From Saccharibacillus kuerlensis DSM 22868 (GTDB lineage Bacteria > Bacillota > Bacilli > Paenibacillales > Paenibacillaceae): DNA of 64,000 nucleotides. Shown here piece after piece: positions 3,955 to 56,429 of this stretch (position 1 is the stretch's first letter; each line of letters opens with the position of its first letter). A program made the translations under genes and the position numbers. The DNA lies in assembly GCF_000378145.1 (NCBI RefSeq), contig NZ_KB899291.1:1-64000 (forward strand). Direction: 5' to 3'. Under the pieces are notes generated by a model that had not been told where the DNA came from, did no database searches, and saw nothing but the letters and a program-made list of their open reading frames with translations.

Positions 3955-5394
<1,440 letters not shown>

Positions 5395-5404
5395 GTTTGA
5401 GCAC

Positions 5405-5686
5405 GTACATCCGACTAAAGCATAAAAAGACGCTTCCCTTTGGGAAGCGTCCTCAACATGTTGAGAAAGTCTTAATTAAAGTGAAGCGGATGTACGAAGA
5501 GGGGAATTCAGTGAAGGAACGATAGTGTTCGCCTTTGAAATCGGGAAAATTCCACTAAAATTCGATCCCTTTTCCCGATTTCAACACGCGACCGGAACGA
5601 ATTCCCCTCGCAGCTATTGAGCTTCTATAACAAATTGAACTTTCTCAACAGCCTTAGGACGCTTCCCACTCGGGAAGCGTCCTTTT
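5405..5686. repeat. Nested-palindrome intergenic element 1
   Basis: It fills the gap between two convergent genes. Inverted arms from outside inwards: GTACATCCG (5405-5413) with 5487-5495; a GACGCTTCCC hairpin (5429-5451) and a near-copy (5657-5682); GTTGAGAAAGT (5460-5470) with 5639-5649; GAGGGGAATTC (5499-5509) with 5599-5609; and a perfect 15-bp stem TTGAAATCGGGAAAA (5535-5549) with 5570-5584 around a 20-nt loop. The same architecture, spacing and core recur at 55478-55598. The right-hand hairpin ends in TTTT and can terminate transcription. Confidence 0.75.
5657..5686 (+). terminator. Terminator hairpin at the edge of palindrome element 1
   Basis: GGACGCTTCCC, four-base loop, GGGAAGCGTCC, then TTTTCT. 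It lies immediately 3' of the ccdC-like gene on the opposite strand and may serve both convergent transcripts. Confidence 0.7.
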
Positions 5687-5693
5687 CTATAAA

Positions 5694-6245
5694 TCAAGCT
5701 TTTGAAGCACCCGCCGGATTGTCGCCGTTCTGAGAACTTGCGGTCATCCGCTTGAACCGCCGGAGCATATTAAGCCGCCAATGCAGAATCATGCCAAAAG
5801 CAAGAATAAAGAATACGCCGCCAGTCTGGGGAAGTGTTACAAAACGTTCGACATAGCTGTGCAGTCCCAGTCGAATTACGATCAGCACAACGAGAATAAC
5901 GAGGAATGCTTTGGACCTTTTGACAAACAGATCGCTGCCGATCTGTTCGAATTGGGTGCCGAGAATCAGGGGGTAAGCAAACAGGAACCAGCCAACGAGG
6001 AATGCGATCAGAGCGCCGGTCCAAGGAATCTGGATATCACGAATCACAAACATAAAGAAACCGGTAGCCATACCGACCGGGGGCATCATGATCTTGCGGA
6101 CCGACAGCGGCCGCTTGCTGGCCTTTATGCGCATAACCAAGGCCATGGATGCCATACCGGCAAAGAACAGAGTGAACAGAACGCTGAGCAGAATCGGGTT
6201 CAGCGAGAACAATTTATCGAAGATCGAATTGATCCAGTCTATCAT
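5694..6245 (-). CDS. CcdC-family integral membrane protein
   Basis: 183 residues. The start (MIDWINS) is preceded by AGAGAAGAGG. There are about five hydrophobic helices and the CcdC/DUF1453 hallmark segment RKIMMPPVGMATGFFMFV. Family members are membrane proteins found near cytochrome-c maturation genes in Bacillus, although their biochemical role is undefined; none of those neighbours is present here. The C-terminus is a basic then Ser/Asn-rich cytoplasmic tail. Convergent with the GH1 gene across the palindromic element. Confidence 0.75.
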   Translation of the reverse strand: MIDWINSIFDKLFSLNPILLSVLFTLFFAGMASMALVMRIKASKRPLSVRKIMMPPVGMATGFFMFVIRDIQIPWTGALIAFLVGWFLFAYPLILGTQFEQIGSDLFVKRSKAFLVILVVLIVIRLGLHSYVERFVTLPQTGGVFFILAFGMILHWRLNMLRRFKRMTASSQNGDNPAGASKA

Positions 6246-6434
6246 TATAAGCCTCTTCTCTGTATAGAATTCGAAAGTAATTATTATGAAAAATGCAGTT
6301 CCAGTATACCACAAGCGGGATATGCTTTTTACAATTGTTGGGCGCGAAATATTAGTTTTTGGGTAAGATTAAGAAGTAATATCATATACGAACGGTTTCC
6401 AATCCGGGACACCGAAGCTGAACGGGGGACCCTA

Positions 6435-55428: not shown

Positions 55429-55460
55429 AAAAAGCCGCGCCTCGAAGGGCGCGGCTTTCC
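55429..55460 (-). terminator. Minus-strand terminator beyond the TspO-like gene
   Basis: On the minus strand AAAGCCGCGCC / GGCGCGGCTTTTT. It lies between the 45-bp repeats and palindrome element 2. Confidence 0.7.
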
Positions 55461-55477
55461 CGCGGCGTAACTCCGCA

Positions 55478-55598
55478 GGGGCAAACGTTTGAGGCGAACA
55501 GCGGAGCGGCCGCATCTAAAACCGGGAAATTCCCTCATGACCTGGCTTCAATCCAAATTTCCCGGTTTTAGCGGCGGGTGAGCCCAAACGTTTGCCCC
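55478..55598. repeat. Nested-palindrome intergenic element 2
   Basis: Outer arms GGGGCAAACGTTTG (55478-55491) and its complement (55585-55598); a perfect 16-bp inner stem CTAAAACCGGGAAATT (55516-55531) with 55556-55571; 24-nt loop. Gaps between outer and inner arms are 24 and 13 nt, against 25 and 14 nt in element 1. The core CGGGAAA..TTCC..TTC(G/A)ATCC..TTTCCCG is shared, and three stem pairs differ by compensatory change. It also lies between convergent genes. Confidence 0.8.
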
Positions 55599-55664
55599 TC
55601 CACCGAGCCTGCCGTCCAATCCGCTCCCGTACCCGCGTGCTCCCCAAGGCGAGGTCCCCGCGCC

Positions 55665-56429
55665 TCAGTCCCGATCCGTGAGGGACCGGACGAACATCCA
55701 TAGAGCAAAGACAGCTAAGGCGATCGATGCTACCAGCGCCGTCGTTTGTACAGCCTGAACGGTATCCGACTGTTCGACCGAGATGGCGTACAGTCCCCAA
55801 GCGATGACAAGCGGATAGACGCCGTCGCGGAAGCGGAAACCGATAATAAAGGCCAGCAGCACGGCTGCGATCAGGATTGTTATCGCCCATCCGGTCTCGC
55901 CCAGCCCGACGTCGCCAAAGTCGTACTTGGCGACAAGCGAAGCAATGTTGACAATTGTGGCAACGCTGATCCAGCCCAGATAGAGACTGAACGGCAGCTT
56001 AACGAAGATAATATCCAGCACTTCAAGTCGCTCGTGATCCAATCGTGTCCGCAGATAAATCATAATGAGCGAGACGAGCAGCAGCAGCATAACGACGACG
56101 GACAGTTCGATCAGCAGATAGTGCCAGCAGAACAACCAGGCAATGTTCAACACGCAGCTGATCGCAAACCACGGTCCCGGCGCGGCGGCAGTAGACCGAC
56201 CTTTTCGTTCTGCGTAGAAAGCGTACGCCACGAAACCGAGCAGCAGTAAATAAATAACGGACCAGATTAAGAATGCAAAGCCTGCCGGCGTAAGCAGATT
56301 TTTGTACATGTCCGAGATCTGCCCAGTGTCCCGCCCCCCAAGAGGCAGACTATTGGACAGCAGGTTAACCGCCAGAGCAGCAATTAATAAAATGACGTTC
56401 AACCATTTGTACGGATTTCTTGACGCCAA
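55665..56429 (-). CDS. TspO/MBR-related tryptophan-rich sensory membrane protein
   Basis: 254 residues from a TTG start, 9 nt after AAAGGAG. Seven hydrophobic helices; TPAGFAFLIWSVIYLLLLGF corresponds to the TspO TP-x-W-x-FP-type segment, and WLFCWHYLL and VKLPFSLYLGWISVATIVN match this longer family. Members are thought to sense or bind porphyrins or lipids, unproven here. The palindrome at 56484-56503 lies in its leader. Confidence 0.75.
   Translation of the reverse strand: MASRNPYKWLNVILLIAALAVNLLSNSLPLGGRDTGQISDMYKNLLTPAGFAFLIWSVIYLLLLGFVAYAFYAERKGRSTAAAPGPWFAISCVLNIAWLFCWHYLLIELSVVVMLLLLVSLIMIYLRTRLDHERLEVLDIIFVKLPFSLYLGWISVATIVNIASLVAKYDFGDVGLGETGWAITILIAAVLLAFIIGFRFRDGVYPLVIAWGLYAISVEQSDTVQAVQTTALVASIALAVFALWMFVRSLTDRD

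Follow-up and report, generated by a model that had tools for sequence, protein, structure and literature searches.

The window analysed here, a stretch of 64,000 nucleotides from Saccharibacillus kuerlensis DSM 22868, has two gaps between convergent genes (as delimited by the gene caller) in which a sequence-only reading had described one and the same nested palindrome. In the first gap, a 6-phospho-beta-glucosidase gene (3955..5394, + strand, NCBIfam) faces a gene on the minus strand that was found by the gene caller and has no NCBIfam match (5694..6314). Between them lies E1, a MITE-like element of 202 bp (5454..5655, + strand) with the ends CAACATGTTGAGAAAGTC ... CTTTCTCAACAGCCTT. Its limits and its terminal inverted repeats (left, 5454..5471; right, 5638..5655; both + strand) were set by aligned copies, and the element extends beyond the outer arms of the palindrome described within 5405-5686. 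Inside the element, a structured core (5495..5617, + strand), supported by covariation and scoring 136.6 bits with model R1, for which it is itself a training row, consists of an outer stem (5501-5509/5599-5607), a small 5' hairpin and an inner stem (5535-5549/5570-5584). The outer arms, GGGGAATTC at 5501-5509 and GAATTCCCC at 5599-5607 (sequence and inverted-repeat search), enclose a 25-nt gap, the inner stem, which is perfect over its 15 bp and closes a 20-nt loop, and a gap of 14 nt. Directly outside the element are two terminator hairpins (inverted-repeat pair I2 and sequence; no strand assigned), at 5428..5453 and at 5656..5683, the latter followed by a T-tract. They have the same 10-bp stem, GACGCTTCCC/GGGAAGCGTC, and different loops; the left one has kept its outer A-tract and lost its T-tract.

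The second gap separates a Rid-family gene (TIGR00004; 54654..55154, + strand, NCBIfam) from a minus-strand gene without NCBIfam match (55665..56429, gene caller). It contains E2, a diverged core (55477..55599, + strand; 82.8 bits with R1, again as a training row) with outer arms at 55477-55491/55585-55599, a 16-bp stem at 55516-55531/55556-55571 and a 24-nt loop, the stem ends being taken from the sequence. The nested inverted repeats and their spacing are present in both gaps, as had been proposed from the sequence, and so are the compensatory two-sided differences between E1 and E2 at stem pairs 1, 3 and 7. In the window, CGGGAAA-N15-45-TTTCCCG, a pattern for the inner stem, is found twice where shuffled sequence predicts 0.02 occurrences; genome-wide it has 20 matches, and the same pattern written in reverse has 3. 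What the two gaps share is a homologous folded core; the idea of a common architecture goes no further, since E1 is transposon-like and E2, a distant relative of the E1 core, lacks both terminal repeats and a target duplication. The terminator hairpins said to flank both are likewise present on both sides of E1, but as two copies of one hairpin, and at E2 on the left side only (a terminator-like hairpin at 55434..55455, + strand; sequence, overlapping inverted-repeat pair I23). We rejected the view that the same element occurs twice, because a BLAST search of the genome gives a single further clear match for E2, against about 40 places for E1.

The approximately 40 places related to the E1 region are dispersed over a 4.70-Mb genome. 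E1-type BLAST matches were also found in nine of the 15 sister species (19-30 scored matches each) and in none of the other six. A pattern scan of a set of bacterial and archaeal genomes gave at least 103 stretches, and 102 of those listed carry Saccharibacillus titles; the remaining listed one is from a metagenome bin whose label is Gammaproteobacteria, and a search of that bin with the element profile gave no match. By DNA similarity, E1 has no match among plasmids. The 226 placed matches were reduced to 193 distinct copies by removing repeats of identical core sequence, so that two loci with identical cores count once. Of the 193, 114 are near full length at their ends with 60 nt or more of flanking sequence, and the own genome contributes 25 of these. 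Aligned copies of the family end in CAACGTGTCGAGAAAGTC ... GACTTTCTCGACAGCCTG. Near-full copies mostly measure about 202 bp between the ends, and 20 of the 114 are 35-115 bp longer; in L034, L045, L046 and L049, inserted sequence can be seen close to the inner stem or within the right arm. At L034 (C25:43127-43359) and L045 (C17:69329-69492), a hairpin insert of about 42 bp (GTGCAAGTTCAC...GTGAACTTGCAC) separates the inner stem from the 5' portion of the core. In the draft genome G000, four contigs break inside a copy of the family (C17, C23 and C30 at their starts, C37 at its end), so it was probably the repeat that interrupted the assembly.

The hairpins flanking E1 are a target-site duplication, and the clearest proof is an orthologous site that is filled in one genome and empty in another. 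Behind the orthologous glucosidase gene, G002 has no element and one hairpin, ACGCCTTCCTGAGAGGAAGGCGT, whereas G003 has ACGCCTTCCTTATTAGAGGAAGGCGTC on both sides of the element, and the sequence beyond is alike in G002. A single hairpin is also found at the same orthologous site in G008 and G009. Across the family, the flanking repeats lie above the 99% null, obtained by pairing flanks from different loci in an ungapped comparison, in 85 of the 114 near-full copies. The duplications are 17-38 nt long in 84 of these and 9 nt in one, which was left out of the hairpin-boundary, G-U and tract counts (n = 84). A target duplication of fixed length was rejected because the lengths run from 17 to 38 nt; IS1202, for its part, makes a duplication of 24-29 bp. 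An IS1272-type insertion, in which the hairpin is replaced and nothing is duplicated, was also rejected, as the hairpin is found twice in the filled site and once in the empty one.

The length of the duplication tends to follow that of the hairpin. In 63 of the 84 cases, a separate stem finder puts each element end no more than 2 nt away from a hairpin's outermost G-C pair, and the other 21 include long stems cut short by the finder at A-T runs and also a few poor ones. The correlation between duplication length and the finder's hairpin length is only 0.48, in part because the finder stops at such runs; the two lengths are within 4 nt of each other in 84.5% of cases, a share that drops to 54.6% if the hairpin lengths are permuted across loci. 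An outer A-tract (at least 4 of 6) is present at the left copy in 61/84, an outer T-tract at the right copy in 59/84 and both in 43/84, while a T-rich start directly after the left copy occurs once. The 29 near-full copies that lack an above-null ungapped duplication include the window's own E1 (row L012), whose two hairpins differ in loop length and which for this reason falls below the threshold; others look decayed or inserted elsewhere.

Members of the E1 family, at about 202 bp, have no room for a transposase gene, and no full transposase gene was found between E1-type terminal repeats in the own genome. Matches to IS1182-family transposases occur in 7 of the 16 Saccharibacillus genomes, four of them over the curated NCBIfam cut-off. 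One type of insertion sequence (IS) is 1568 bp long, with the ends CAGAGTGTCGAGAAACCC or CAGAATGTCGAGAAACCC, and GAGTTTCTCGACAGCCTG. Its ends resemble those of the E1 family, at 17 of 18 positions on the right (GACTTTCTCGACAGCCTG compared with GAGTTTCTCGACAGCCTG) and at 13 of 18 on the left (CAACGTGTCGAGAAAGTC compared with CAGAGTGTCGAGAAACCC). Both ends were recognised in four copies, three of which (L217, L225 and L229) are flanked by perfect hairpin duplications of 31, 21 and 20 nt; the fourth (L216) has no duplication. A piece of its transposase scores over the NCBIfam cut-off for IS1182. Since this IS has E1-type ends and makes the same duplication in three of four copies, E1 was likely mobilised by an IS1182-type enzyme, and the 1568-bp element is the likely source.

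In four copies (G002, G003, G006), the transposase of this IS gives two overlapping matches in different frames, near the run GGAAAAAAGC. The split lies at L217:2260-2280 on the minus strand and is also seen in L216, L225, L229 and their partners; judging from the sequence, it could be a programmed -1 frameshift. Two other elements were seen. A decayed relative of the IS in the own genome (C30) lies between two different hairpins, and a second IS1182-type element, in G011 (L215), has other ends and is also placed within a terminator-like repeat. In the latter locus (L215:1080-3080), a copy of the E1 family stands beside the IS1182-type element, and pieces of one terminator-like repeat separate and flank both.

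The core is much more widespread than E1. Model R1 rests on a consensus alignment of E1, E2 and 24 other cores, and with 30 candidates scored per genome it detects the core in 100 of the 118 genomes of the family and in 14 of its 19 genera; outside the genus of the window, the count is 89 of 107 genomes, one of which (G016) supplied a training row. Six genomes scored more deeply (150 candidates) have 15-66 core matches each. In a survey of 101 genomes of the phylum, three match, all from the same family, and the 20 listed among the 98 without match are all from other families. Five Saccharibacillus genomes in which BLAST gave no E1-type match (G001, G004, G005, G010 and G012) have 2-29 core matches each, which indicates that the core is older than the E1 ends. 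It occurs on its own and predates these ends, and E2 is such a core.

Its pairs covary strongly. The consensus has 30 pairs, with two-sided changes in 22, and 94.4% of the cells of the 26-core alignment can pair; the shuffled control gives 82.4% and the slid control no more than 56.4%. In a larger alignment of 122 matches from 87 loci (86 from other genera, plus L272 from the same genus; 13 of the 122 rows read a place already included from its other strand), the paired fraction of cells is 95.4%, against 66.5% in the shuffled control, and two-sided changes affect 27 of the 30 pairs, although this alignment was fitted to the model and therefore leans towards it. Unpaired and junction bases are conserved between genera, whereas the stems vary, the outer stem freely. 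The covariance-model search proposed from the sequence has thus yielded further copies in the genome and its relatives, with conserved spacing and with covariation far above two kinds of control. The accompanying claim of selection on structure, as opposed to simple duplication, stands only in part, since the copies do proliferate and paired changes can also arise when one arm of a palindrome is corrected against the other. No Rfam family reaches the gathering score at E1 or E2. In the window, a tRNA is the only Rfam 15 match at that score, and 14 core-bearing loci of other genera gave just two, a purine riboswitch and a PyrR site, neither of which overlaps a core; at a relaxed score, the matches over E1 are weak and far below gathering, the best two being on the flanking hairpins. 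We therefore rejected a known RNA family.

Outside Saccharibacillus, the cores have other surroundings. The best repeated word was found on 8 left and 8 right sides of the 27 elements in G066, about 40 nt from the core, and on 8 left and 13 right sides of the 30 elements in G108 (sides counted separately; shuffled rates about 0.05 in both). This suggests, from the sequence, that a minority of these cores carry other terminal repeats. We found no duplication of terminator-type hairpins there: 4 of 80 are above the 99% null, in a sample restricted to elements away from edges, from N and from neighbouring elements. A core from genus g23 has no match among phages and plasmids by DNA similarity, and at the site of one core-only copy in that genus the relatives have no comparable gap. 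Several arrangements of the core can be added. In G051 (C43:254774-255417; L249), three core copies are in tandem with a spacing of exactly 260 bp. In G066 (L326, L336 and L338), the loop or an arm of one core copy seems to contain a further core-bearing element, which means that elements of this kind insert into one another. At the G042 locus L265, partial, stem-less repeats of the conserved flanks (CAATTGCTGTTGTCAGCGCTCCG) lie to the left of a full core at 1501-1620.

The E2 locus shows how such a core behaves among relatives. The E2 orthologues of G008 and G011, neither of them a training row, score 75.4 and 72.9 bits with R1. At the same locus, G015 and G006 have only the outer hairpin around a short loop, the inner part of about 75 nt being absent, and G014 has an E1-type core without terminal repeats in the gap; the same gap in G002, G003, G009 and G013 yielded no core of this kind. 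E2 is thus a standing member of the core family, and gain or loss can affect its inner part of about 75 nt. To the left of the E2 orthologue in L363 and L364 (G015 and G006), the gap has a long stretch of GAGCC pentamers.

According to our own gene caller, 50 of 111 E1-family copies lie between convergent genes, 58 between tandem genes and 3 between divergent ones (of the 114 near-full copies, 2 at the edge of their locus and 1 placed within a gene call were left out), against 41, 132 and 62 of 235 control gaps; divergent gaps are thus avoided, and the convergent excess is significant (Fisher p = 1.2e-7). The suggested bias to convergent gene ends is hence clear for the E1 family and weak outside Saccharibacillus (19/103 against 3/34 control gaps). 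The 103 placed cores outside the E1 set (109 places, minus 6 at edges) are divided into 77 tandem, 19 convergent and 7 divergent contexts. None of the 109 elements is inside a gene when genes are called with codon scoring; the 41 of 109 given by another caller were judged an artefact of spurious reading frames. One could argue that the hairpins at E1 are simply two separate terminators of convergent genes, with the element merely between them, for which two terminators are indeed plausible. We consider this very improbable, as more than half of the family's copies are between tandem genes, empty orthologous sites have one hairpin, and the hairpins are alike within a locus (identical in 30 of 84 pairs) and unlike those of other loci. 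E1 is very probably a non-autonomous, MITE-like transposon copy with IS1182-type ends that duplicates terminators and has an older folded core at its centre.

The nature of this core is harder to specify. It could be a noncoding RNA family, transcribed and acting at gene ends, with copies near terminators by chance. The strong covariation, the junction bases conserved between genera, the presence in 14 of 19 genera and the orientation of the E1 family in tandem gene pairs (42 along transcription, 16 against) would all fit such an RNA. Against it, the E1 family has terminal repeats and target duplications, orientation is near even outside Saccharibacillus (45 sense, 32 antisense), and no Rfam model matches. 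The G-U pairs are also few, at 2.3% of the standard core pairs (first 108 of the 122 rows) against 6.1% in the folds of E1-locus terminators, a figure that includes flank pairs, though the core reaches 4.4% on minimum-energy folds; this leans weakly towards pairing at the DNA level or arm correction. We regard an RNA family as rather unlikely. The core may instead be a passive palindrome without a function of its own, whose arms stay perfectly complementary through mutual correction (template switching). Among standard core pairs 97.7% are Watson-Crick, the outer stem varies freely, and G015 and G006 lost or never had the inner part at the E2 locus while keeping the outer hairpin, as one would expect of such a palindrome. 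Yet arm correction alone does not explain the conservation of unpaired and junction bases between genera, and the 15-66 copies in the deeply scored genomes speak against passivity, so that we see this as a somewhat doubtful, if serious, alternative. Our tentative guess, somewhat less likely than not, is that the core acts as folded DNA which must be present in cis for the element to be mobilised or copied. More speculatively, the core of about 120 nt, present in many copies in most members of the family, may represent a new class of structured mobile module, a folded DNA combined with varied and fast-changing ends and transposases; IS1182-type ends would have joined it in one genus, where it would spread by integration guided by structure, the target hairpin would set the length of the duplication and bidirectional termination would be kept.

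For E1 as a transposon copy, the mechanism might be the following. An IS1182-type transposase would join the element at the 5' feet of a hairpin, and the whole stem-loop would be duplicated. Since the left hairpin keeps its A-tract and the right one its T-tract, transcription entering from the left or the right should read past the first hairpin it meets, cross the element and end at the second, and an insertion with such termination would cost the host little. This suggests how a selfish element can settle cheaply at gene ends, the duplicated terminator being able to serve both directions. The tens of natural insertions, together with the empty site and the candidate partner transposases, also offer a way to test a proposed process in which a shape-reading transposase duplicates an entire stem-loop. 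The core, in turn, is a widespread covarying repeat without a name in Rfam, and structure-based screens could mistake it for a noncoding RNA.

Several known systems resemble parts of this picture. Group IIC introns insert downstream of intrinsic terminators, and Rfam holds group II intron models; E1 differs from these introns by its inverted terminal repeats and target duplication, and the Rfam search of the window gave tRNA only, so we rejected a group IIC intron. Long duplications are recorded in ISfinder for some members of the IS1182 family. Like E1, bacterial MITEs are short, dispersed in gene gaps, bounded by terminal repeats and folded when transcribed (PMC10969869); the passages of that article on such elements name none that duplicates a terminator, whereas E1 duplicates a hairpin of variable length and, unlike them, has at its centre a covarying core found across a family. 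The pneumococcal repeats BOX, RUP and SPRITE are also short, structured and dispersed in gene gaps, and SPRITE has terminator-like sequence (PMC3049150, PMC10969869). Among the titles listed in searches of open-licence literature, none describes the E1 element or the family-wide core. Close parallels are IS1272 and TnSha1 of staphylococci, which also have IS1182-type transposases and hairpin targets, confirmed terminators included, with no sequence preference (PMC4923244, PMC5678879). Other members of the IS1182 family are said to target palindromes (Siguier et al. 2015, cited in PMC4923244 and PMC5678879), as is the case at the Saccharibacillus insertions. The targets of TnSha1 are hairpins, several of them terminators, and are partially deleted without duplication (PMC4923244); for IS1272, joining at the 3' feet of a cruciform target is inferred to replace the stem-loop, and joining at the 5' feet would duplicate it (PMC5678879). 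The stem-loop is thus replaced or partly deleted in staphylococci, without target duplication, but duplicated in Saccharibacillus (PMC4923244, PMC5678879). In the open-licence sources consulted, hairpin-seeking IS1182 elements are already known, whole-hairpin duplication appears only as a model, and such a duplication with its empty site is not described. Judged from their sequences, the Saccharibacillus insertions would be what the 5'-foot pathway of PMC5678879 predicts.
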